From Roseisalinus antarcticus (GTDB lineage: Bacteria > Pseudomonadota > Alphaproteobacteria > Rhodobacterales > Rhodobacteraceae): a stretch of 45,484 nucleotides of DNA. A model generated the notes under the pieces. That model saw nothing but the letters and a program-made list of their open reading frames with translations, did no database searches and was not told where the DNA came from. Shown here one piece after another: positions 10,141 to 41,209 of this stretch. Position 1 is the first letter of the stretch. Every line of letters starts with the position of its first letter. The position numbers and the translations under genes were made by a program. The stretch is taken from contig NZ_FWFZ01000027.1 of assembly GCF_900172355.1 (NCBI RefSeq), positions 1-45,484 of the forward strand. The letters are read 5' to 3'.

Positions 10141-10902
10141 ATGCGCGATTTCTATGGCGAAACCCTGAAAACGCCAATGATGCTGGGCACGGCGCGCTTT
10201 CCTTCGCCAGCGGTGATGGAGGCTGCATTCCGCGAAAGCGGCGCATCGGTCGCAACGGTATCGCTGCGGCGCGAACGCGGTGCGGGTCAAGCGTTCTGGG
10301 ACATGGTGCGCGGCCTTGGTGTGCATCTGCTTCCGAACACTGCCGGCTGCCATTCTGCGCGCGAGGCGATCACCACCGCCCAGATGGCGCGCGAATATTT
10401 CCAGACCGACTGGATCAAGCTCGAGGTGATCGGCAATGCCGACACGCTGCAACCCGATCCTTTCGGCCTTCTGGAGGCCGCCGAGGTCTTGTGCGCCGAT
10501 GGGTTCAAGGTGTTCCCCTATACCACCGAAGACCAGGTGTTGGCCGCAAGGCTGGTTGATGCGGGCTGCCGGGTGCTGATGCCCTGGGGCGCGCCCATTG
10601 GATCGGGGATGGGGCTGAACAACATTCACGGGTTGCGCACCCTGCGCGCGGCCTTTCCCGATGTGGCCATGGTGATCGACGCGGGTCTTGGCCTGCCCAG
10701 CCATGCGGCGCAGGCGATGGAGCTGGGGTATGACGCGATCCTGCTGAACACCGCCGTGGCCGAGGCGGATGATCCGGCCGCCATGGCGCGCGCCTTTGCC
10801 ATGGCCGTGCAGGCGGGCGCGCTGGCGGCCACATCCGGGCCGATGGGCATGCGCGACATGGCCGTACCTTCAACCCCCCTCATTGGAAAGGCATGGCTAT
10901 GA
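10141..10902 (+). CDS. thiG: ThiG, thiazole synthase
   Basis: Condenses 1-deoxy-D-xylulose 5-phosphate, dehydroglycine and ThiS thiocarboxylate into the thiazole phosphate. 253 aa, typical. The Schiff-base lysine is Lys93 in [10 protein letters not shown]. Other conserved parts are [38 protein letters not shown], and the phosphate-binding end [12 protein letters not shown] with [13 protein letters not shown]. Overlaps thiE by 10 bp. Confidence 0.97.
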
Positions 10903-22534: not shown

Positions 22535-25500
22535 TCAGAATGTGAGCGTGACGGTTTTGGCCGCTCCCCGCCCGATCAAGGCGGAGATCTGGAAGATGCG
22601 GATGTCGAGCGTGTCGCCGGGACCGAGCGGCCCGCCCCAATCGGTGGTTTGCTGGGCGGCCGTGTAGATCGCGCTGGTCGTGGTCGCGTTCAGCACCCGC
22701 TTGACCGTTGCACCATCGAGGATCTCGACCTCATAGGCTTCGACCTCCTCGATGAGCGGCACCTCAACCGCACCCCAACTGTCAGCCGCGAGGGCTCGGG
22801 ACCGACGTGCCCAGCGGATCGTCAGATCGCCCGGTATGCGCGGCTTGCGCCATGGCTGCTCGACATGGGCCACTGAGAACGGCCGCAGACCCACGCCCAC
22901 CGGCGTGAAGTTGGCAGCGACATAGGTCTCACCGCTGACTGCGCGGCTTGCGGGACCGATGCGCCAGTTCCACGGAAGCCCGAGGTCAGCCTCGGCGATG
23001 GGTAGTGATGCCAGGGCCTCGTCGAGAACTACGACCCGTGCGCCTGTAGAAGCCGGATTGGCCATAGCCGCTTCCGTGCCGCGCTGTCCTCGCAAGAGCC
23101 GCGTCAGTTGATAGCGGCCCGGCGCGATCAGGTCTGCTGTGCCCGCCTGGACGATTTCCCAGAAACCTGACGCGGTCTCGATGGCGAGCGCATTTGCCCC
23201 GCCGAACAGCGTCAGGTCCGTGACACTTTCCAGCGTACCAGAGAGCAGATCGACCACCAGCGCATTGCCGAGATCGAACCGCGATGTGGGACCAGCATAG
23301 AAATCCGAGACCAGCGTTCCGATCCGGGCACGGCCACCAAATGTCGTCAGCAGTTCAAACCCGTCCGTCGATGGGCTGCGGAACACTGCCATCTCGCCCG
23401 GCCAGGGAACGGCGTGCGCTGCGATGAGCGGCCGATGCGCGGGCTGATCCTCGGTCAGTTGCGGCAGGTCCAGCAGCACCACCTCGGGCGCGCCGAACAC
23501 CACGGCTTTTGACAGGGACGACGGTCGTGGCGATCCGGGTGGCAGATCGTGTGCCTCGCGGTCCTGACGGACGGCTTCGATCCCGCGTGCCTCCGCATCT
23601 GCGATGGAAACAAGCCGCAGCGGGATGTGCCGACCGTCATGTGCCAGCGTGACAACGTCCGCCGGATCCAGCGCCAGCCGCGAGGGTGGCAGGCGAAACG
23701 CTGCTGTTTCCCGCCCGGTCCAGGCTTCCATCAGCGCGCGACGGCAGCGGCGTTCAGCTTCTTCTGGCGGGACTGCCATGGGAAAGCTCTCCGAGGCGAT
23801 CCGCGTTGTGTCGACAGTGATGCGGCGCGCCTCAACGAGGGCGGCATCATAATCCTCGTCGGCCCGCGCTACCTGCCATTTGAGCGCCTGCGGCAGTTCC
23901 GTCTCCTGCGCGCGGGTCAGTTCGAGAACGTCGCCCTCGCTGGCCGCGACAAGATCGTCGTGCATCACGTTTGCCACGGCGGCCCGGCCCCGCATCACGA
24001 AACGGATCATGCCCTCGGTCTCCACCGCGTCAAAGCCGAAATGCCGCGACAGCGTTGTGATGGACGCTCGCGGGGATTCCAGTGCGCCAATCGCATAACC
24101 TTCGAGCGCACCCCAGAGACCGGTGACGTCGATCCGAGCCTCGGGCATTCCCGCACGCACGCAAAGATGGCGCACCAACGCGGCCAGCGACACCGCTCCA
24201 AGCCGCCCGGTCAGCCAGTGTCCCAGCCGCCAGTTTGCCCCGTCGGTCCAGACATCGGTGAGCGCCGGGAAGAACGGATAGGGCCGCGCGTCCCAGGTCC
24301 AGGCGGCGCATTCGGGGACATGCACCATTCGGCCGCCGTAGACCGATGACACTGGGTTGTTCGCCGGGGTGCCCCACCAGAGATACGTCGCCTCGAGATA
24401 GGCGCGCTGGATCGCGTCGTCGCGCCAGCCCCGCGAGAAATGCGGCGTGAAGCTCTCGGAAGACTTCGGATCGAAGAAGACGTTAGGCTGGTTGGTGCCC
24501 CGGTCAATCGCCGGGCAGCCGAGCTCGGTGAACCAGATCGGTTTCGACTGCGGGGTCCATGCCGTCAGCGTTCCGCTCTCCACCCCACCGGGGCGGTTGT
24601 AATGCGCATTCGACCACCAGGCGCGCAGATCCTTGTAGCGGAAGACCCATGGCTTTGCCGCAGCCCCATCCGAAATCGGTGTGCGCACCTGCGCTGAGCG
24701 GTCTGCGGCGCTGGCATAGAACCAGTCGAAGCCTTCGCCGCCCGCGATGTTCCCCTGCAGATAGCTGCGGTCGTAGATCGCGGGCCAGCCCTCGGCCGCA
24801 TCGGCGTGCTCGAAGCCGTCCCGCCAGTCCGAAAGCGGCATGTAATTGTCGATCCCGACGAAATCGATCTCCGGATCGGCCCAGAGCGGATCGAGGTGGA
24901 AGAACACGTCGCCCGAGCCGTCGCCCGGCTGGTGTCCGAAATACTCCGACCAGTCGGCCGCATAGCCGATCCTGGTGCCGGGCCCGAGGATCGAGCGGAC
25001 ATCCGCGAGCAGATCCCGATACGCCTGCACAGCCGGATAGGTGCTGGCCCCTGAGCGGATCGTCGTCAGCCCCGGCATCTCGGTGCCGATGAGGAACGCA
25101 TCGACCCCGCCCGCCGCTGCGCAGAGATGGGCGTAGTGCAGCACCATGCGGCGCAGCCCCCAATCGCCGGGCGTGCCTGTCCACGAAACCGACTGAACCG
25201 AGACGCTGAAGTTGGCGGGCGTGGCCGCTCCGAACAGCGCCGCGACCTGCGTGGTGGCCGTTGCCGTCTTGTCCACGGTCCCGGCATAACCCGTAGCCGG
25301 AGAACAGGTGATCCGTCCTCGCCAGGGGAACGCGGGCTGCCCCGTTTCGGCGGCATTGTCAGAATACGGATTCGGCAGGCTGTTGCCGGGCGGCACATCC
25401 ATCAGGATGAACGGATAGAACGTGACGCGCAGCCCCCGTGCTTTCATCTCCTGGATTGCCTGCAACACCGCGAAATCGGCGGGCGTGCCGCCATAGACAG

Positions 25501-26503
25501 GGCGATCCTGATCGTCGCGGCTGACCAGAAAGGCATTGGTGCGGCTGACACCATTCACGGACCAGGTCGACGGCGTGGTGGTCTTGGCGGTGACCTCGAC
25601 GCCCGGTCGCACCTGGCAATTGCCTGCCCGCAGATCATCGCCGAACCAGGCCACCACTAGCGACACGCTCTCGACTTTCGGTGCCATGGCCTGCAGCCGG
25701 TCCAGCGCCACCACTATGTCGGCGGTATCGGTCAGCGCGTTAAGGTTCTCGGGCTCGGACGACCCGCCGCTGCCCTTTCGGATGCCCTGCGTGGCATAGG
25801 CGAACTCGCCTGAGGCCGGGATCATGGTGACGGCCCTCACGTGCCCCTCCGCCGTGTCCGGATCAGCCAGCGGGCGGAATACCTCGAAACTCAGCTGCGG
25901 AATGCGGTTTCCGTAGTTCCCCAGTGGCAGGTCCTCGAAGACCACATAGGCCGTGCCGCGATAGGCGGGCGTGTTGGCCGCGCCCATCTTCGCTGAAATG
26001 AACGGATCGGCCGCCTGGCTCTCGTCGCCCGGATACCAGCGCCATGTGATCCCGCCGGTATCCAGCAGCTTGCCGTCGGCCCAGATGCGGCCAATGCCAG
26101 TGATCGGCCCCTCGCAGAGAGCCACGGCGAAGCTCGCATAGTAGAAATACTCGGTGGTCTTGACCTTGCCGCCACCCCCGCCGCCCTTGCCGCCACCCTG
26201 CGTAGTGGTCTTGGTTTCCTCGCGGAAATCGGTCGCCCAGACGATGTTGCCACCCATCCGCATGCGGCCATAGAGGCGTGGGATCACCGCACCTTCAGTG
26301 GCCGAGGTGATGCGCAGATTGTCCAGCCGCGCGCCTTCGATCCGCTGGGTGGGTGCCAGTGACGAGATGATCCAGCTGTCCACGACCGAGCCGATGGTGG
26401 AACCGATGAAGCCACCGATGGTCGCGGCGCTGACGCCGAGGATCGCGCCGCCAATGCTGCCGCCAATGGCAGCACCTGCGGCACCGAGAACGAGGGTGGC
26501 CAT
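22535..26503 (-). CDS. GTA-like TIM-barrel baseplate/host-specificity megaprotein
   Basis: 1322 aa, the largest gene here, corresponding to the GTA 'TIM-barrel-like' tail protein that forms the baseplate hub and tail tip. The start is Gly-rich and hydrophobic (VLGAAGAAIGGSIGGAI), followed by VIPRLYGRMRMGGNIVWATDF. The glycoside-hydrolase-like TIM barrel is in the middle, including GIDNYMPLSDW, WFTELGCPAIDRG and WTWDARPYPFF. The C-terminal third has fibronectin-like segments. Probably contacts the cell surface and may degrade envelope sugars. Nine base pairs separate it from the NlpC/P60 gene upstream. Confidence 0.93.
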   Translation of the reverse strand: MATLVLGAAGAAIGGSIGGAILGVSAATIGGFIGSTIGSVVDSWIISSLAPTQRIEGARLDNLRITSATEGAVIPRLYGRMRMGGNIVWATDFREETKTTTQGGGKGGGGGGKVKTTEYFYYASFAVALCEGPITGIGRIWADGKLLDTGGITWRWYPGDESQAADPFISAKMGAANTPAYRGTAYVVFEDLPLGNYGNRIPQLSFEVFRPLADPDTAEGHVRAVTMIPASGEFAYATQGIRKGSGGSSEPENLNALTDTADIVVALDRLQAMAPKVESVSLVVAWFGDDLRAGNCQVRPGVEVTAKTTTPSTWSVNGVSRTNAFLVSRDDQDRPVYGGTPADFAVLQAIQEMKARGLRVTFYPFILMDVPPGNSLPNPYSDNAAETGQPAFPWRGRITCSPATGYAGTVDKTATATTQVAALFGAATPANFSVSVQSVSWTGTPGDWGLRRMVLHYAHLCAAAGGVDAFLIGTEMPGLTTIRSGASTYPAVQAYRDLLADVRSILGPGTRIGYAADWSEYFGHQPGDGSGDVFFHLDPLWADPEIDFVGIDNYMPLSDWRDGFEHADAAEGWPAIYDRSYLQGNIAGGEGFDWFYASAADRSAQVRTPISDGAAAKPWVFRYKDLRAWWSNAHYNRPGGVESGTLTAWTPQSKPIWFTELGCPAIDRGTNQPNVFFDPKSSESFTPHFSRGWRDDAIQRAYLEATYLWWGTPANNPVSSVYGGRMVHVPECAAWTWDARPYPFFPALTDVWTDGANWRLGHWLTGRLGAVSLAALVRHLCVRAGMPEARIDVTGLWGALEGYAIGALESPRASITTLSRHFGFDAVETEGMIRFVMRGRAAVANVMHDDLVAASEGDVLELTRAQETELPQALKWQVARADEDYDAALVEARRITVDTTRIASESFPMAVPPEEAERRCRRALMEAWTGRETAAFRLPPSRLALDPADVVTLAHDGRHIPLRLVSIADAEARGIEAVRQDREAHDLPPGSPRPSSLSKAVVFGAPEVVLLDLPQLTEDQPAHRPLIAAHAVPWPGEMAVFRSPSTDGFELLTTFGGRARIGTLVSDFYAGPTSRFDLGNALVVDLLSGTLESVTDLTLFGGANALAIETASGFWEIVQAGTADLIAPGRYQLTRLLRGQRGTEAAMANPASTGARVVVLDEALASLPIAEADLGLPWNWRIGPASRAVSGETYVAANFTPVGVGLRPFSVAHVEQPWRKPRIPGDLTIRWARRSRALAADSWGAVEVPLIEEVEAYEVEILDGATVKRVLNATTTSAIYTAAQQTTDWGGPLGPGDTLDIRIFQISALIGRGAAKTVTLTF

Positions 26504-26512
26504 GTGGGGATC

Positions 26513-26947
26513 TCAGCGTTGTGGGAACAGGAAGGCGAAGGCGATGCGCCGCCGCCAAGGCGGGGTGATCTGTTCCTCGATCACGCCGAGGCGCTCATAG
26601 GCGTGGAGGAATTGGTCCGGTCCAGTGAGGATCCCGACATGCTTCGCGATGGCGCGGGGCTGCATGCGAAAGAGGACCAGCGCGCCCGAAACAACATCAG
26701 AAGTGGCGATCTCCGGCATCATGCGCCGAGCCCCATCCGCAAGAACCTCGCGCGGGCCGGTCTCGCCCCAGTCGCGGCTGTAGGGCGGGATCGGGAACGG
26801 TTCAGGGCCGACGACCTCACGCCAGACGCCCCGGGCGAGCCCAAGGCAATCGCATCCGACGCCCTTGAGACTGGCTTGGTCGTGATACGGCGTGCCGAGC
26901 CAGGACCGCGCGATGGTTACGACGTATTGAGGATCTACGGCCTTCAA
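26513..26947 (-). CDS. NlpC/P60 cell-wall peptidase (GTA-like)
   Basis: 144 aa. The catalytic Cys34 is in VGCDCLGLARGVW and the His103 in AKHVGIL; the spacing and the start (WLGTPYHDQASLKGVG) match the GTA peptidase component of the tail tip. No ATG is present: the only suitable start is TTG at 26947, overlapping the TGA of the DUF2163 gene, so translation should depend on coupling to the upstream gene. It likely opens peptidoglycan during DNA entry. Confidence 0.92.
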   Translation of the reverse strand: MKAVDPQYVVTIARSWLGTPYHDQASLKGVGCDCLGLARGVWREVVGPEPFPIPPYSRDWGETGPREVLADGARRMMPEIATSDVVSGALVLFRMQPRAIAKHVGILTGPDQFLHAYERLGVIEEQITPPWRRRIAFAFLFPQR

Positions 26948-27828
26948 AGCACCGCCCCCTCATGTCCACCATCCTTGGTGGCGTAGCGGAGAACTGCGTC
27001 CTGGCCGGGGATGTCCGGGAAGCCGCGAAAGTTGACGGTGTTGGCAAACTTCGCCCCACAGGTCTCCATGCGCTTGTCGCAGCCCGCGCGGACAATGAAA
27101 ACGTCGCCTCCGGCAATAGACCGCACGGACGCTTCGAGCAGTGTCAGCACCGCGATGCCGTCTGTCACGTCATGCGCGATGATCTCGGCGCGCCGCCCGG
27201 CATTGGTCCCGCTGGTCCATTCGACGGTACCGAAGGTGAACCAGCCGGAGGAGAAGCCGCCGATGCCCGAGGCGGTGAACGCCCGATCCCGCAGAAGGTC
27301 GAGCACGGTGCCCGAACCTTTGAATGCCGGGCTCTCCAGATCGACGCCGCAGCGCGTATCCCCGAGCCCGGCGTCGCAGGTCGCCTGAAAAGTTCGCCCG
27401 ACCGTTTGGCCCAGCACATGCGCGAGGCTGCGGACCTCGGCAACAAAGGCCAGCCTTCCGCGCCGGATTTGGCCGATGGCACCCCGGCGCATCAGCACGC
27501 GCTGGCCGGTGTCCGCCCAGTTCACCCGCCAGACCTCGACCTCGGCATTATCCCAGCGGCCGTCGAGAATGTCGGTTTCGGTGATCCGGTCGGAGGTCAG
27601 CACACCTTCGGCGTCCTGCGCATCGACCGACAGGTCAGACCCCGATCGCACCTCGGAGGCCGTCAGCCCGCTTTCCGGCTCGAAATCGGTGCCGTCGAAG
27701 CTGAGCGTCCGGTCGTGGTCGGTGAAGCCGAAGGTCACGCTATCCGCGCGGGCAATCCGCCAGCACCAGGACAGCGTCGTCGTGCCCTCGTCCAGATGCG
27801 TTTGCAGATCGGGGTTGATGCTTTTCAT
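26944..27828 (-). CDS. DUF2163 baseplate protein (GTA-like)
   Basis: 294 aa. N-terminal DUF2163 domain with WCWRIARADSVTFGFTDHDR and DFEPESGLTASEV; C-terminal phage-baseplate-associated region with CGAKFANTVNFRGFPDIPG and three more Cys nearby (FQATCDAG, TRCGVD, RAGCDKRMETCG). In GTA this corresponds to a hub/iron-binding baseplate component; the Cys residues may bind a metal here as well. Overlaps its neighbours on both sides by 4 bp. Confidence 0.92.
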   Translation of the reverse strand: MKSINPDLQTHLDEGTTTLSWCWRIARADSVTFGFTDHDRTLSFDGTDFEPESGLTASEVRSGSDLSVDAQDAEGVLTSDRITETDILDGRWDNAEVEVWRVNWADTGQRVLMRRGAIGQIRRGRLAFVAEVRSLAHVLGQTVGRTFQATCDAGLGDTRCGVDLESPAFKGSGTVLDLLRDRAFTASGIGGFSSGWFTFGTVEWTSGTNAGRRAEIIAHDVTDGIAVLTLLEASVRSIAGGDVFIVRAGCDKRMETCGAKFANTVNFRGFPDIPGQDAVLRYATKDGGHEGAVL

Positions 27829-28451
27829 CGGCGGAGTTCCAGAAGTGGAATGGATGTGATCGAACCCAGCCGCTCGAGATCAAGCGTCACGTCGAGCGCA
27901 TCGGTGTCGAAGCGGACGGGTACGTCGAACTCGAAACCTGCGGCGACGGAGACGCCCACCCCTGGTGCGGTATTGAAGGTGACGAGGCCCATCGTGGTAT
28001 CGGCCGACCAGCCTGACGGCTGCTCGACTCCGCTAAGCGCAATGCGCACGGTGCCCGCCACTGGCTTGACGATTGTGCGGGTCCAGGATTGCGCTCCGGA
28101 GGCGTAGCGCTTCACCAGTTGGAAGGCGGTCGTCGTGCCGTCGCCGGCACCAATCGCCTGATCGCTCGGCGATGGCGTCCCCGAGGGCAGGCAGGACTTG
28201 TAGTCGCCCCAGTCCTTGAAACGGAAGCCATACAGCCGCCCGTTTCGTGCTTCAAAGAAGGCAACGACCGCCGCAAGGTCGTCCGCGCGGCGGATACCGT
28301 AGGCGACGTCGTAACGGCGTCGGGAATTGGCCCAGCTGGCGTTGCGCTCCTCATCGCCGGAGGCCAGCTCGACGATCTGTGTGCGACGTTCCGGCCCGCC
28401 GCGAGCGCCCCGGCTGATATTGTCGGGAAACCGGACTTCATGAAACGCCAT
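27825..28451 (-). CDS. DUF2460 distal tail protein (GTA-like)
   Basis: 208 aa from the ATG at 28451, which overlaps the tape-measure stop (TGATG). DUF2460 is clear: FHEVRFPDNISRGARGG, RRRYDVAYGIRRADDLAAVV, FFEARNGRLYGFRFKDWGDY, and LVKRYASG with a final DVTLDLERLGSI. By GTA homology it forms the ring between tail tube and hub. The only alternative start is a GTG one codon upstream. Confidence 0.93.
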   Translation of the reverse strand: MAFHEVRFPDNISRGARGGPERRTQIVELASGDEERNASWANSRRRYDVAYGIRRADDLAAVVAFFEARNGRLYGFRFKDWGDYKSCLPSGTPSPSDQAIGAGDGTTTAFQLVKRYASGAQSWTRTIVKPVAGTVRIALSGVEQPSGWSADTTMGLVTFNTAPGVGVSVAAGFEFDVPVRFDTDALDVTLDLERLGSITSIPLLELRR

Positions 28452-30865
28452 CACATGCCCCTCCGACCCAACGACACGGCGCGGGCGATGTCAGCCGCGA
28501 CCTGCGTGCGCGACTGCCGGAAGCTTTCAGCGTCGCGGGCCATGATGGTGACATTGATTCCACCGCCGCCGTAGCTCTGTGCTTCACGGCGCGACAGCAC
28601 CCGTTCGCCCCGCTGCAGGATCGCTGGGACTTCATCGTGGCGCAGACCGGCAACGCCGCCGGAATGCATCCGGGGCGCTGCCGCGAACGCCATGGCTGGA
28701 ACCATTCGGCCTGGCGAAGAGGCGCCGACCATGCCGCCCGCATGCAGGATGTTCGCGAAGATACCACCCGCGCCGCCAAGCGCGCCGGAAAGCGCATTGG
28801 CGATCGGTCCCAGGATGAACCGCCGCGCCGCCAGCTTCGCAAGGTCGGCCAGCAGCGAGGTGACCAGATCGCGAAAATCCAGCTTGCCGGTCTTCACGAA
28901 GTCTCCAACCGCGTTCTCTGCCGACTGAAACGCGCCAACCAGCGCCTGGCCGATATCGCCGCCGATATCCCGGGCCTTGCTGGCATAGTCGCTGAGCGCT
29001 GCGGTGACCGCCTGCCAGCCGGTGACGGCGGCCTCGCTATTGGGTTCGGCGGCAGTGGCAGCAGCCCCGGCCGCAGCACCGGCACCCGTAGCCGCACGTC
29101 CAGCATCGCCAAGGGCTGTCTCCAAACGCTCAGCCGCGCCAGTCGCCTCGGTCAGCGCGTCTGCGCCAACCTCATTGCTGCCCTGCACGGCGTCACGCAG
29201 GGCCTGCCAGCTGGCGAGCGGCGCACGCGCGCCCTCGGCCAGGTCGCGTGCAGCCCCGCGATAGGTGTTGGCTGTTGCAAGTGCGGTGTTGGCCGCCTCG
29301 GTGAGCCCGAGGTCGGGGGCTGTGAGCGGGTTGTTCTCGAAAGCCCGGTCAAAAGCAGTCTGCGCAGCCGTGGTCGCAGCCGTCGCGGCACCCTCGAATC
29401 GGTTCTCGATCTGAGCCAGCTCAAGATCGGGGATGATCGAGATGCGCCGCTCCGACCCGAGCGCTTCCAGCCCCTGGTTGATACCGCCAATGAAGCCGTT
29501 GATGCGCGAGACGACGCCGTTCAGCATTGCCTCGACACCATCGATCAGGCTGTTGGCCGCCTGAAACGCCAGGTCGCCAATGGCGGCTGGCAGCATGCCC
29601 CAGATTGCCTTGATCGCCTCATAGGCCCCCTCAAAAGTGTTCGCCGCCGTGTTGCCAAAGGCCACGACGCTCTCGATAGCGCTCTGCATGCCGGAGGCGG
29701 CATCGGCCTTCAGATCGAAGAACATCGCCGTGGCCGCAGCGCCCGCCGCCGCAGCCCCCATCTTGATGCGATCCCAGACCTCGACGGCGAGGTCCTTCAG
29801 GAGCGACATTGCCTCGCCAAATCCACCCGCGCCCGACACGAGGCGGGTGAACTGGTAGACGAGATCACCTGCACCGACGATCAATGCCCCGATGCCGGTG
29901 CGGATCAGCGCGCCGCGCAACAGGACCAGCGCAGTGGCGAGACCGCGCACCGACAAGGCCGCCACGGCCATCCCAGCGACCCAACGCCCCGCAAGAAAAC
30001 CCACAAACGTGGCGGCATAAGTGGTCAATCGGCCGATGTTGTCGAATAGGCCCCGGATCGCGATGCCGAGTGGCCCGGTGCGGCTGGCCACGGCCGCCAT
30101 CGCGTTCGCGACCGCTTCCAGCGCGGGTGCTGCTGCGACAGCCAGTTGGTTCGACAGGCCACGCCAGATCAGCCCGAGCCGGGAGATCGCATCATTGGTG
30201 CGTTCGATCTGGTCGGCGTCTTGCTCGGAGACAACGACACCGAAGGCGAGGACGTCCTCGGTCGCTTGGCGCAGCGTCGCGGTGTCGATGCGCGACATAG
30301 CGATGGAGCCTTCCTCGCCAAAGAGCTGACCGGCGACAGCGGCACGCTCGGCGACCGGCACGAACTCCTCAATGGCGGCGTTGATCGCCCCCACCCGCTG
30401 ATCCAGCGGCAGGGCGATCAGCTCGGTGGCCGAGAGCCCGAGCCGATCCAGCGCGTCGGCAGCAGGTCCCGTCCCGGCGGCCGCCTGGCTGAGCCGTCGA
30501 GTCAGATCCTTGGTCGCCTGCTCAATCCCGGAGATGGAGACACCCGCCAACTCACCCGCCCGCTCCAACGTCTGGATCGAGGCGACCGTGGTCCCGAGAG
30601 ACTGAGCCAGTTTGGCCTGCGCGTCGACGGTCTGCAGCCCGGATCGGACCATCGCCACGCCAGCAGCAGCAGCAGCGGCCACGGCGGCAGCGGCGGCCAC
30701 TGTGACACGGCGGGAAAACGCCGCGAGCCGTGTATTGGCCGCTTCCATCTCCCGGCTAAGGCGGCCGAAGCCGCGCGCCCCGGCTTCGCCCACGCCTTCC
30801 AGCTCGGCACGCACCTGTCGGCCGCCGACTGCGGCAAGTCGGACAGAAACGCGCTTTTCAGCCAT
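28451..30865 (-). CDS. Tail tape measure protein
   Basis: 804 aa. It sets tail length and aids DNA injection. The N-terminal half is an Ala-rich helical protein (coiled coil and repeated Gln/Ala stretches) with a central hydrophobic region around 280-325. The C-terminal end has the lambda gpH/tape-measure C-terminal motif FRDLVTSLLADLAKLAARRFILGPIANAL and then a Gly/His-rich tail (GGMVGASSPGRMVPA, GGVAGLRHDEVPAILQRGERVL). That motif is where tail-assembly chaperones bind. Starts 8 bp before the end of the frameshifted chaperone extension and overlaps the DUF2460 gene by one base. Confidence 0.92.
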   Translation of the reverse strand: MAEKRVSVRLAAVGGRQVRAELEGVGEAGARGFGRLSREMEAANTRLAAFSRRVTVAAAAAVAAAAAAGVAMVRSGLQTVDAQAKLAQSLGTTVASIQTLERAGELAGVSISGIEQATKDLTRRLSQAAAGTGPAADALDRLGLSATELIALPLDQRVGAINAAIEEFVPVAERAAVAGQLFGEEGSIAMSRIDTATLRQATEDVLAFGVVVSEQDADQIERTNDAISRLGLIWRGLSNQLAVAAAPALEAVANAMAAVASRTGPLGIAIRGLFDNIGRLTTYAATFVGFLAGRWVAGMAVAALSVRGLATALVLLRGALIRTGIGALIVGAGDLVYQFTRLVSGAGGFGEAMSLLKDLAVEVWDRIKMGAAAAGAAATAMFFDLKADAASGMQSAIESVVAFGNTAANTFEGAYEAIKAIWGMLPAAIGDLAFQAANSLIDGVEAMLNGVVSRINGFIGGINQGLEALGSERRISIIPDLELAQIENRFEGAATAATTAAQTAFDRAFENNPLTAPDLGLTEAANTALATANTYRGAARDLAEGARAPLASWQALRDAVQGSNEVGADALTEATGAAERLETALGDAGRAATGAGAAAGAAATAAEPNSEAAVTGWQAVTAALSDYASKARDIGGDIGQALVGAFQSAENAVGDFVKTGKLDFRDLVTSLLADLAKLAARRFILGPIANALSGALGGAGGIFANILHAGGMVGASSPGRMVPAMAFAAAPRMHSGGVAGLRHDEVPAILQRGERVLSRREAQSYGGGGINVTIMARDAESFRQSRTQVAADIARAVSLGRRGM

Positions 30866-31522
30866 GGGAATGATCCATCTGTTCGTTGAGTTTGGCGACC
30901 ATCACCGCTTCGATGACGGGCAGCAGTTCAGCCATGGCCAGAGGCGGGATGCCGAGGGCTTCACCGAGTGCCAGTGCCGCCGACATGTCCCATCCGATCA
31001 CCGCGCCCGGCAGCACGCGGAGCTGGCCGCCGAGACGACCGACCAGGTCCCAGACCTGCCAGCCTTCAAAGGTGGTGGGTCGGTTCAGCCGCGCGGGGCA
31101 GTCTTGGCAGGCTTGCGTGCATGCGTCGCAGTATCGCTCGCCCCCGCCGAAGGACCATTCGGCAAGGGCGCGGAGACGTTTTTTTCCTGGTCCAGCAGCA
31201 GGCCTTTGGAGACGAAGGTCAGCTGGAAGGCTTCGAAGATCGGCCAGACATCGAGCAACGCGTCGATGGCGTCCGGGCTGGGGACAATCACGTTGCCATC
31301 GGCATCACCGATGCCCTCCCAGGACAGGACTGCCCGCCGCGCCAGCGCCTTGGCGAAGGCAACGGCGCGTTCCTCGTCGGAAGCGTCTACCGGGACCGCC
31401 TCGACAGCCGCATCGCTGCGCGTTGCAACCATCAGCGCCGTGGTCAGCGGGCGCAGCTGCAGCCGGACGCCCGGCGCGAGATCATACCAGCGGGGTGCAT
31501 TCGTCAGATCGAGCGTCAGCAT
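30858..31522 (-). CDS. Predicted -1 frameshift fusion: GT-like tail chaperone
   Basis: If ribosomes slip back by one base at the heptamer at 31178-31184, the 115 codons before it are joined to 106 more, giving about 221 aa. The new part reads RLRALAEWSFGGGERYCDAC, then TQACQDCPARLNRPTTFEGW, QVWDLVGRLGGQLRVLPGAV and LGEALGIPPLAMAELLPVIE. It carries a Cys-x2-Cys-x3-Cys-x2-Cys motif and lacks a good start codon of its own upstream of the Cys cluster. It stops at 30858-30860, 8 bp into the tape-measure gene. This is the arrangement of the G/GT tail chaperones of long-tailed phages. Confidence 0.7.
31085..31522 (-). CDS. Tail assembly chaperone, G-like (zero-frame product)
   Basis: 145 aa. It starts MLTLDLTNAPRWYDL, then VRLQLRPLTTALMVATRSDAAV, DASDEERAVAFAKALARRAV and IDALLDVWPIFEAFQLTFV. 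Position between tail tube and tape measure identifies it as the G-like chaperone. Its ATG overlaps the tail-tube stop by one base. At codons 113-115 (E-K-N) it reads through A AAA AAC. In the zero frame it ends shortly after in a low-complexity tail (SDTATHARKPAKTAPRG); in the -1 frame a long cysteine-bearing extension follows. Both products are probably made. Confidence 0.8.
   Translation of the reverse strand: MLTLDLTNAPRWYDLAPGVRLQLRPLTTALMVATRSDAAVEAVPVDASDEERAVAFAKALARRAVLSWEGIGDADGNVIVPSPDAIDALLDVWPIFEAFQLTFVSKGLLLDQEKNVSAPLPNGPSAGASDTATHARKPAKTAPRG
31178..31184 (-). promoter_or_regulatory. Programmed -1 ribosomal frameshift site (A AAA AAC)
   Basis: On the minus strand the chaperone gene reads GAA AAA AAC at codons 113-115, so A AAA AAC lies in the correct phase for tandem -1 slippage. 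This is one of the best known slippery heptamers. Downstream GC-rich sequence could form a stimulating stem-loop; I did not model it. The -1 frame is open for 106 codons and looks protein-like, which supports use of the site. Confidence 0.75.
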
Positions 31523-32460
31523 CAGTAAATCTCCACATCATTCACAAGGGTTGCGGTGCACATCCGGCCGACCGTGCTGTCGCGTGCGGCCTGCCAGTCG
31601 AAGGTCGCCTGCACGCCCTGCGGACCGGAAATTTCGATCCGGGGGCGCGGTAGGTAGACGGCGTGCACGGTGAAGGTGAAGCTTTCGCCAGACGGCAGCA
31701 CATAGGCGAACTCCAACTCGCAGGGATCGCCGTTGATCGCCTGCGTTACCAGCGTCTGGTCGGCGAAACGGACCTCGATAGAGCCGGTCAGCGCAGCGAT
31801 TGACGGGTCGGCCCCATCAATGCGGCCGTCTGAGCGGATGGTCTCGATCCGGTCGAGGTTGTTGGCATATGTGATGTCGGCTGAAACCACGTTGCCGAGG
31901 GCGGTGCCGTTTCGCGTGATCGCCCCATTGAAATGGCCGAAGCGCTGCAATTCGAGAGCGGCTGGCGTGCCTGCGCTGGTGGTCGTAGCGGTGGTCTCGC
32001 CCTGCGCCACAAGCCGGGCCGTTGCCGTCAGCAGGCCAGATCGCTGCATTTGCCAGTTGATCTGGTCGAGCACGCATCCGGAATACATCGCAAAACGCGG
32101 GACCTCAGGCATGCCGGTCTCGATGGACATGCTGGGCAGCGTCCAGCTTCCTGACTGGAACTCGTGCGTCCAGGGACCGGTGCCGGTCGTGGTCGGGTCG
32201 CCAAAGGCCGCCTTCAGCCAGAACCCGAAGGCCTCGGCGTCGAGCGGGACCACGACGTCGCCGTCCGCCGTCACCGCATCCTTGATCGGGGCGAGCGGGT
32301 CTCGGCCGTAGCCCAGCAGTTCCGAGTTCAGCAGCGGCTGCTCCGCGCCGAGCGACGTGCTGGCGAAGGGCATTTTCGTGAAGCCACCCACCGGTGGCGT
32401 TCCATAATTCGTCTCGAACGCAAGCGCCATCTGCGCCCGCGCCCCTTGGGCTCGTGCCAT
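31522..32460 (-). CDS. Major tail tube protein
   Basis: 312 aa. Starts MARAQGARAQMALAFETNYG, then GYGRDPLAPIKDAVTADGDV and FGFWLKAAFGDP, a pattern shared by tail-tube proteins of this phage group. Later DITYANNLDRIETIRSDGRIDG and SGESFTFTVHAVYLPRPRIEI. Located between the head-tail joining genes and the chaperone gene, as expected. It builds the tube through which DNA is delivered. Confidence 0.88.
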   Translation of the reverse strand: MARAQGARAQMALAFETNYGTPPVGGFTKMPFASTSLGAEQPLLNSELLGYGRDPLAPIKDAVTADGDVVVPLDAEAFGFWLKAAFGDPTTTGTGPWTHEFQSGSWTLPSMSIETGMPEVPRFAMYSGCVLDQINWQMQRSGLLTATARLVAQGETTATTTSAGTPAALELQRFGHFNGAITRNGTALGNVVSADITYANNLDRIETIRSDGRIDGADPSIAALTGSIEVRFADQTLVTQAINGDPCELEFAYVLPSGESFTFTVHAVYLPRPRIEISGPQGVQATFDWQAARDSTVGRMCTATLVNDVEIY

Positions 32461-38886: not shown

Positions 38887-39207
38887 GTGCTGAAGAAACT
38901 TGCAATCGTAGTTTTGAGCGTCGCGCCCGCGAGTGCTGAGGCGCAATCAATGGACAGCATGAAGATGGCGACCGAACTTGGAACGATCTTAGCGTCCGAG
39001 GAATTTTGTGGCTTGGCCTACAGTCAAGACGCAATCGGTCAATGGATCGATCAAAACACGGACCCTTCTGATATGGGCTTCTCCGGAACTTTGCAGATGA
39101 TGACAGAAGGCACGCGCTACAATCTTGGCAGTATGTCGGAGAGTAGTAAGACGGCTCACTGTAGATCGATTGAACGGACAGCGCACCATTTCGGATTCAT
39201 AGAATAG
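38887..39207 (+). CDS. Small secreted protein, cargo inside prophage
   Basis: 106 aa from a GTG at 38887, with AAGGAA 6-7 bp upstream. The first 20 residues are a Sec signal peptide (VLKKLAIVVLSVAPASAEA). The mature part has two cysteines (EEFCGLAYS and AHCRSI), likely a disulfide in the periplasm, and no recognised fold. It runs in the same direction as the zinc-ribbon gene, so the two form a small operon. It overlaps, antisense, the out-of-frame 3' tail of the terminase. Confidence 0.75.
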   Translation: MLKKLAIVVLSVAPASAEAQSMDSMKMATELGTILASEEFCGLAYSQDAIGQWIDQNTDPSDMGFSGTLQMMTEGTRYNLGSMSESSKTAHCRSIERTAHHFGFIE

Positions 39208-40701
39208 CCGAGTTTTGGTCCGCTTAAATCCTTCGACGCCCTTCACCGGCGCCACCTGCGCGTAGCCCTGCGCCCGCGACCATGTGTAAACGGCGGGCGC
39301 CTCATACCCGGTATCGATGGCCAGCCGCGCGATAGTCAGGTGTGCGCCGCGCGCGTGCGGCCAGGATCGGCCGAGAAGCGCCGTCAGCTCGCCCCACGCG
39401 TCGTGCCGGTCCGGCCCGCCCTCAATGACGACATGATCGACGAGCCAGCTTTCCAGACCACGGCCCCAGGCCCAGACATCGACCTCGATGCGGTCCTTCT
39501 GCACGTCGGCGCCCGCGGTCAGGAACAGGCCGCCCGCCGGCACTGTGCCCGGCTTCCAGTGCTCGCGGCGGTCATGCAGCCGCTGCCACTCCGGCGCCTC
39601 GCCGCTCTCGACCCATGTCTCGCCGAGGATCGTGTTGCGGAACGCCTTGATCGCCTCGTCCGAGCCTCGGGCCGCCTCCCAGGCGCGCGCGATCCGGTCC
39701 CAGCCGAGCCAGCCCACCGGCGAGTAGAGCGCCGAGAGGTGATAGCCGACGGTGCCGGGGTCCTCCGGCTCGGCGGTCGCGCGCCATTCGCCCGCTTCCA
39801 GCATCGCCGTCTTGTGGTGCTCCGCGATGGCCCCGTCGCAGCCCTCGCAGAGATACTCCGCCGTCTCCGGCCGCCCCTTCTCCCAGCGCAGCCGGTCGAA
39901 CTTCAGCCACTGCATTGCGTCGCAATGCGGGCATGGCACGAAGAAGCGGCGCTGGTCGGACGCCTCGAGCTCCCGCTCGATTCGGGAGAGCCCCCGGATC
40001 GTCGGCGTCGAGACGAGGAACACCTTGCGCCGGTGGGCAAAGGTCAGCGAGCGCGCCTCGGCCAGCGTCACCGGATCGCCTTCCTCGTCGGCCGAGGCCG
40101 GATAGGCATCGACCTCATCGAGGAAGATGTAGCGCGCGGGTGTCGAGCGCAGGCCCACGGCCGAGTTCGCGCCCGTCATGATCAGGATGCCGCCCGCGAA
40201 CTCCTTCGACAGCATGGTGTTGCCCGCGTCGCGGGAGCGCGCAGGCTTCACCCGCTCCCGCAGTTCCGGACTTTCGTCGATCAGCGGGTCGATCCGCTGC
40301 CGCGAGTTGCGCTTGGCCAGTTCGACCGTCGGCTGGACCGCCAGCATCGGCCCCGGCGCCTGATGGATGGCGAAGCCGATCCAGTTGTTGCCGGCCTCGG
40401 TTGCGCCGACCTGCGCCGCCTTCATGAACACGATCCGCTGTGTGGGATCGCCGGGCGACAGCCGGTCCATGATTTCGCCCATATAGGGCGTCCGCGCCGT
40501 GCGATACCGGCCCGGCTCGGCCGATGCGCGACCGGACAGCATCCGGTGCCGGTCCGCCCATTCCGATACGGTCAAGTCCGGATCCGGCGTGAGGCCTGCG
40601 CCCCAGGCACGCAGGATCTCTGTCGCGCCGTCGAAATCAAAGGCATCATCACCGGAGATCGGGCTGGATCTCGGCGAGGTCGTCGAGCTGGGATCGGACA
40701 T
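38989..40701 (-). CDS. Large terminase (GpA-like), 3' truncated by insertion
   Basis: Motor and nuclease that packages phage DNA. 570 aa from the ATG at 40701, but only residues up to about 491 (KGVEGF, near 39235) are genuine. Visible: LTVSEWADRHRMLSGRASAEPG, the ATPase region VFMKAAQVGATEAGNNWIG, IFLDEVDAYP (Walker B region), CPHCDAMQWLKFDRLRWEKG with CEGCDG, and IARLAIDTGYEAPAVYTW. After KGVEGF the frame reads antisense to the secreted-protein gene (KRTKTRLFYESE and onward), which is junk. Family members run to about 650-700 aa, so a large part of the C-terminal nuclease domain is missing. It starts 53 bp inside the small-terminase gene. Confidence 0.88.
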   Translation of the reverse strand: MSDPSSTTSPRSSPISGDDAFDFDGATEILRAWGAGLTPDPDLTVSEWADRHRMLSGRASAEPGRYRTARTPYMGEIMDRLSPGDPTQRIVFMKAAQVGATEAGNNWIGFAIHQAPGPMLAVQPTVELAKRNSRQRIDPLIDESPELRERVKPARSRDAGNTMLSKEFAGGILIMTGANSAVGLRSTPARYIFLDEVDAYPASADEEGDPVTLAEARSLTFAHRRKVFLVSTPTIRGLSRIERELEASDQRRFFVPCPHCDAMQWLKFDRLRWEKGRPETAEYLCEGCDGAIAEHHKTAMLEAGEWRATAEPEDPGTVGYHLSALYSPVGWLGWDRIARAWEAARGSDEAIKAFRNTILGETWVESGEAPEWQRLHDRREHWKPGTVPAGGLFLTAGADVQKDRIEVDVWAWGRGLESWLVDHVVIEGGPDRHDAWGELTALLGRSWPHARGAHLTIARLAIDTGYEAPAVYTWSRAQGYAQVAPVKGVEGFKRTKTRLFYESEMVRCPFNRSTVSRLTTLRHTAKIVARAFCHHLQSSGEAHIRRVRVLIDPLTDCVLTVGQATKFLGR

Positions 40702-41209
40702 GTTTCTCCAGAGCCTTCTGCATCGCGGCCGGTTCCACGCCCACATCGGCCGCCATCAGTGCGGCCACCCGGGCGGGCCAGTTGACCCAGACATCGCGCT
40801 CCTGCCGCGCCAGCCGGAACACCAGCGCCAGCGCGCGGGCGCGGTCGATCAGCTCGCCTTTCAGCTTTTGCAGCCGGAGGCGGCGTTCCTGCGCCTTCAG
40901 CACTTCGTTCGCTGTCTTTGCCTGCAGGAACGTGGTGCCGCTGCCGACAGGCGGGGCTGCCATTCCCTGTTCGCGCAGCGTTTCGCCTACGGCGGATACC
41001 GCCGCCTCCGGGACGGGTTTGAGCTTTGGCTGCGGCGTTTTGCGGGTCTTCGACGGATCCGTGGCTTGAGCGCGCAGGGCGTCGCTGGCCACCGCGTCGA
41101 TGCTGCCATCGGCGTGCAGTACCAGCCGCCCCGTCGCCTTGGCCTTCTGGATTGCCCCGCGCGAGAGGCCGACGCGGGCGGCATACTGGCGCTCGCTCAG
41201 ACCCTCCAT
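40649..41209 (-). CDS. Small terminase-like DNA-binding protein
   Basis: 186 aa. N-terminal HTH LSERQYAARVGLSRGAIQKAK, then a Lys/Pro-rich linker (PSKTRKTPQPKLKPVPEAA) and a helical C-terminus (ANEVLKAQERRLRLQKLKGELIDRA). It fits the Nu1-like small subunit that recognises packaging sites. It starts the late operon; the divergent plus-strand genes begin 112 bp away, so the interval 41210-41320 holds the promoters of both directions. Confidence 0.82.
   Translation of the reverse strand: MEGLSERQYAARVGLSRGAIQKAKATGRLVLHADGSIDAVASDALRAQATDPSKTRKTPQPKLKPVPEAAVSAVGETLREQGMAAPPVGSGTTFLQAKTANEVLKAQERRLRLQKLKGELIDRARALALVFRLARQERDVWVNWPARVAALMAADVGVEPAAMQKALEKHVRSQLDDLAEIQPDLR

Follow-up and report, generated by a model that had tools for sequence, protein, structure and literature searches.

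The closest described system is the G/GT tail-chaperone frameshift of long-tailed phages, which a published account presents as widely conserved (PMC5009743). According to the same account, in phage lambda G is the part that binds the tape measure protein and T the part that recruits the tail tube protein, and the heptamer A_AAA_AAC, also reported there for the halovirus HCTV-2, was less shift-prone than A_AAA_AAG in E. coli constructs (PMC5009743). Slippage at two tail-chaperone junctions has been measured at 6 and 7% (PMC3711429), and the frameshift is mentioned as usual for phages of Rhodobacter capsulatus (PMC8601537). The lambda site lies between the tail tube and tape measure genes, with its heptamer near the end of G, a -1 extension, and an overlap of T with the tape-measure start (T ends at 10549 and H starts at 10542; J02459). 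A locus in the window, that is, the whole stretch of 45,484 nt that was analysed, shares this layout and differs in its heptamer, which is A AAA AAC and not G GGA AAG. Its features are as follows.

31522..32460, minus: tail tube protein gene, upstream neighbour (Phage_tube_2, E 1.2e-59)
31085..31522, minus: G, zero-frame tail assembly chaperone, 145 aa with an ATG start, the last 30 codons lying 3' of the slip site
31178..31184, minus: slippery heptamer A AAA AAC, in phase, codons 113-115 of G
31139..31170, minus: predicted RNA hairpin, 13-bp stem and 6-nt loop
30858..31178, minus: T, the -1 frame part, 106 aa and a stop
31085..31178, minus: doubly coded stretch (tail of G and head of T), which also contains the hairpin
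31098..31130, minus: Cys-x2-Cys-x3-Cys-x2-Cys cluster of T (residues 17-27), a putative metal site
30861..31016, minus: match to Pfam DUF7697 (PF24752), beginning at GTG 31016 (E 2.5e-28)
28451..30865, minus: tape measure protein gene (phrog_8462, E 3.4e-215), whose ATG overlaps the end of T by 8 nt

The position and phase given for the heptamer in the first-pass annotation were re-derived: GAA AAA AAC forms codons 113-115 of the 145-codon G frame (31522 to 31085), and AAAAAAC occurs only once in the whole window, on the minus strand. The same annotation had described a -1 frame open for 106 codons that ends 8 nt inside the tape-measure gene and had expected a fusion of about 221 aa, and both statements were confirmed from the sequence, the predicted GT being 221 aa long and joined after G codon 115. 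The G gene stands between those for tail tube and tape measure, as G/GT genes do, and its product matched phrog_313 'Tail assembly chaperone' (E 3.8e-24), with BLASTP of the two parts against those of lambda giving nothing significant for either (E 7.6 and 2.1). From these data and those of the relatives described below, we estimate a probability of about 0.95 that the junction works by programmed -1 ribosomal frameshifting, as G/GT tail-chaperone junctions do. It is an ordinary G/GT frameshift in kind, already annotated in R. capsulatus phages.

In a single sequence the heptamer is weak evidence, because 12.8% of 2000 synonymous shuffles of G contained some in-phase slippery heptamer, and 8.35% of 2000 contained one at exactly codons 113-115. 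Relatives were therefore collected from phage records, from scans of genomes and of viral contigs with a motif (80 loci from each, the best of 552 and of 585 confirmed places) and from genome searches with DUF7697, the loci of the latter being those among the matches listed. Since DUF7697 covers only the second half of T, that set does not select for the junction. The 200 loci examined and the 92 loci of the DUF7697 set had 34 in common, and all sets pooled gave 208 distinct complete G-T DNAs, which are related sequences whose counts are not independent events; named relatives were mostly Rhodobacteraceae, and the host is presumably a member of that family too. Both parts were found in 198 of the 200 loci; 196 of these had T in the -1 frame relative to G, one (L002) had the two in one frame, and one (L073) had a different relation, as did a further exception, L232. 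Among the DUF7697 matches listed, G and T stood in -1 relation in 84 of 92 loci, and all 84 of these had a slippery heptamer where T begins; the remaining eight comprised one in-frame locus, one +1 locus, five without detectable G and one without detectable T. Relative to the T stop, the tape-measure start occupied the window's position in 112 of the 208 sequences and a different nearby one in 60; in 36 the rule used to look for it found none.

A canonical heptamer was present at the homologous place in 207 of the 208 distinct DNAs, which removes chance as its origin. The forms found were A AAA AAC (194), G GGA AAC (7), A AAA AAA (5), A AAA AAT (1) and, in the sole exception, L029, A AAG AAC. 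The 71 sequences of the DUF7697-only subset were all canonical (63 A AAA AAC, 4 G GGA AAC, 3 A AAA AAA and 1 A AAA AAT, with no A AAG AAC). The junction codons varied (GAA, GCA, GAG or GCG; AAA or GGA; AAC, AAA or AAT) and the X XXY YYZ pattern did not, so that the constraint acts on nucleotides and not on the encoded residues. Elsewhere in the G-T genes lysine was encoded more often by AAG (463) than by AAA (324), and glutamate by GAG (1590) rather than GAA (1252).

Comparison of the two frames in homologous prophages, which the first-pass annotation had proposed as a check together with conservation of the heptamer, came out in the same direction. Among 131 equal-length relatives, zero-frame synonymous diversity was 0.34 in G codons 1-100, 0.27 in codons 101-112, 0.01 in codons 113-115 and 0.089 in the overlap, and that of the T frame was 0.144 in the overlap versus 0.329 after it. 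The lowered T-frame value could stem from the hairpin or from the tail of G; since T codons 14-31, which lie past the hairpin, still averaged about 0.14, the G tail also seems to be constrained. Both frames are under coding constraint. The G/GT reading proposed initially was supported by the heptamer, the -1 relation and the synonymous constraint in relatives.

The predicted hairpin at 31139-31170 was absent from the first-pass annotation and was found in the present analysis. Frameshift signals of E. coli dnaX and of insertion sequences combine a heptamer with a hairpin at short spacing, to which dnaX adds an upstream Shine-Dalgarno stimulator, and the present junction has the same closely spaced pair of elements in different genes. 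In the window, the first base pair lies 8 nt after the last heptamer base (a 7-nt spacer), the structure spans 8 to 39 nt after it, and the 50-nt stretch containing it has a predicted fold of -26.1 kcal/mol, compared with -11.6 kcal/mol for the same stretch of lambda, the sole yardstick used, which has no comparable hairpin. In 41 loci, drawn from the 205 of the 208 that were eligible, a 50-nt stretch beginning 5 nt past the heptamer had a mean z of -2.68 against dinucleotide shuffles, versus -0.16 in 164 control windows of 50 nt from the same loci; with 80 nt instead of 50 the mean z was only -0.86. A stem was predicted in all 42 representatives sharing less than 80% identity, its first pair falling 6-9 nt after the heptamer in a folded stretch that itself starts 6 nt after it. 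Predicted energies across all 208 sequences ranged from -12.1 to -32.8 kcal/mol, 99% of them at -15 or lower.

The structure exceeded what coding demands of the sequence near the heptamer, as is expected of a 3' stimulator. Compared with recodings synonymous in T, the 42 representatives had a mean z of -2.38 (36 below -1 and 3 above 0), and with recodings that preserved the zero frame, of -2.31 (35 below -1 and 2 above 0). Across 62 distinct sequences matched in register, pairing held in 727 of 806 stem cells (90%) and fell to 46-60% when one side was slid. The hairpin was also retained in six loci in which G stops one codon after the heptamer (z against T-synonymous recodings of -4.89, -2.06, -1.55, -2.45, -3.39 and -2.94), and it is independent of the G tail because it is kept in these loci, where there is no double coding. 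RNAalifold did not recover the hairpin as one consensus stem; it gave four consensus pairs, two of which were changed on both sides. We can only guess that a strong hairpin has been kept because A_AAA_AAC is a poorer site than A_AAA_AAG.

Expression of the junction and slippage on it, as well as the slippage rate, the role of the hairpin and those of the proteins, are what we infer. Ribosomes translating G would arrive at A AAA AAC and, with the heptamer in their decoding sites, meet the 13-bp hairpin about 7 nt downstream; a fraction of them would slip one base back and continue into T, yielding G (145 aa) as the majority and GT (221 aa) as the minority product. By analogy with lambda, G would bind the tape measure protein and T would recruit the tail tube protein. 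The host draft genome has 39 tRNA genes, with only Lys-UUU and Asn-GUU for the heptamer codons, a set that is incomplete in the draft (no Tyr, no Ile) and does not settle the shiftiness of the site.

Long runs of A or T make bacterial RNA polymerase slip, and the two frames might in principle be joined by the polymerase rather than by the ribosome. The window has a run of seven A (31185..31179), and runs of seven or eight occupy the junction in 189 of the 208 distinct sequences. Polymerase slippage usually takes eight or more A, however, and the 19 sequences without a run of seven (11 with six A, one with four and seven with three) kept the frame relation all the same; the fixed spacing from heptamer to hairpin also suits a ribosomal signal, and we regard polymerase slippage at this junction as very improbable.

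Still less probable is that T is translated alone from an internal start, such as GTG 31016, and that the heptamer is incidental. Both database families begin near that codon, DUF7697 at GTG 31016 itself and phrog_11212 two codons earlier, and the records of a Synechococcus and a Nostoc phage annotate T as a separate gene. Yet GTG 31016, the first ATG, GTG or TTG of the -1 part, is T codon 55, which bears out the original remark that this part has no good start, and translation from it would omit the first 54 residues of T, which are conserved and confidently modelled. A start codon accompanied by a ribosome-binding-like motif was found in none of the 208 sequences between 60 nt ahead of the junction and 48 nt past it, and any start codon in this range in just three. 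Farther upstream in the open T frame, between its opening and T codon 16, 41 of the 208 had a start codon (25 of them ATG), which is a point in favour of internal initiation; the heptamer and the synonymous constraint would nevertheless be left without explanation, and the -1 frame extends G with no plausible start of its own. We find it equally hard to credit that a fused gene was broken by a chance frameshift in a decaying prophage. The terminase large-subunit frame of the window looks cut short, and the prophage may thus be defective, but the -1 relation and the heptamer recur in 84 of the 92 DUF7697-set loci listed and in phage records, and both frames are constrained.

Eleven phages of R. 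capsulatus (RcOceanus, RcKai, RcKemmy and 8 more) have the same G and T families at 41-50% identity. In three records examined the joined frameshift product is annotated and the heptamer differs, being G GGA AAC; RcOceanus has the hairpin, with the same -26.1 kcal/mol as the window. A second type of module, that with DUF1799, showed weak profile similarity to T (probability 27.8%, P 6.4e-4); hmmscan matched DUF1799 weakly in 3 of 8 relatives (best E 0.025), and the window protein had no match to Pfam DUF1799 (PF08809) above the curated cut-off. Like the present locus, all eight DUF1799 prophage loci from the window's own family had an in-phase G GGA AAC ahead, all five phage records examined, of 41 matched, had a heptamer in -1 phase, and the record of RcapMu, which has a module of this type, carries a 'potential -1 frameshift'. 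Unlike it, a zero-frame stop (TGA) directly followed the heptamer in seven of the eight loci, as judged by the next codon, the heptamer abutted the zero-frame stop in the five phage records, and the matched part lacked the Cys cluster. Folds of -18 to -30 kcal/mol followed the heptamer in the eight prophage loci; in the phage records, -18 kcal/mol or lower was reached in two of five, both Rhodobacter phages.

The end of T matched DUF7697 with 98.2 bits against a curated cut-off of 27, and also matched phrog_11212, both being families of unknown function. We infer that the two families are a start-truncated half of T, and we propose that they hold only its second half because the first half has no start codon. 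On this proposal DUF7697 would gain a likely function and a fuller extent, and a reason is suggested why automatic annotation halves T. The Cys cluster had been taken for an unusual extension, which did not hold: it is a conserved part of T, with W8, G13, C17, C20 and C27 invariant in 41 diverse sequences and C24 conserved in at least 90%. Four conserved cysteines in paired spacing, which varies in distant members, make a metal site possible. The conservation of W8, G11-13, Y16 and C17 is partly built into the motif-picked loci, because these were selected by a motif in the first half of T, and the DUF7697 set avoids this bias. The AlphaFold model of T had a mean pLDDT of 93.5 and was confident over nearly all 106 residues. 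Five of its nine best matches among viral structures were named 'Tape measure chaperone' (best E 6.2e-3, probability 1.00), none reaching an E of 0.001 or below, and there was no strong match in the PDB. Why a putative tail-tube recruiter should keep a four-cysteine cluster becomes a testable question.

An open-access literature search returned no paper naming DUF7697, and the listings of that literature, a limited test, gave no report of the truncation explanation. Titles and opening parts of abstracts in the open-access literature, with subscription journals mostly outside, made no mention of a conserved hairpin at tail-chaperone junctions. The hairpin within doubly coded DNA, the proposed identity of DUF7697 and phrog_11212 as the start-truncated half of T and the Cys cluster as a conserved part of T thus appear to be new, in that we did not find them in print.

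Five DUF7697 tail modules were present in the same draft genome (contigs C53, C58, C45, C77 and C145), which suggests several related prophages. One of them, the in-frame exception L002 (contig C58, 16382-17647, minus), has eight A at the junction and G and T in one frame; the frame equivalent to the G tail is open for 36 codons and the tape-measure frame for 834. This junction could be a sequencing fault, decay or another route to two products. To a fuller account we assign roughly even odds: that the junctions form a widespread, hairpin-stimulated class of the G/GT type, found mainly in Alphaproteobacteria but also in another class within their phylum; that a single stretch of fewer than 100 bases encodes the end of G, the beginning of a metal-binding T and the stimulator RNA; that T is a Cys4 tail-tube recruiter represented in databases by its second half alone (DUF7697, phrog_11212), for want of a start codon in the first; and that L002, with its eight-A in-frame junction, could have changed to polymerase slippage as its way of producing the short form. 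With heptamer, hairpin and both protein frames all varying, the collected junctions make a large natural set that should be useful for defining what bacterial ribosomes require in order to slip.

Some minor observations were made on individual loci. The T frame of L258 has 287 codons in total, of which only about the first 79 follow the family; by eye the remainder resembles a tail-hub gene, and this may reflect a deletion or a joint made in assembly. The records of the Synechococcus and the Nostoc phage (L008 and L009) have identical G and T despite their differing hosts, and their host labels may deserve a check. In the window itself, the terminase large-subunit frame (38989-40746, minus) matches only the first 181 of 294 nuclease-domain positions, and small plus-strand open reading frames overlap or adjoin its end; this packaging gene of the prophage may have been cut short. 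Beyond the tape-measure gene, the minus strand at 22535-28454 carries tail-tip genes of the Rhodobacter gene transfer agent type (GTA_TIM, Rcc01698_C, BR0599, NlpC/P60 and DUF2460).
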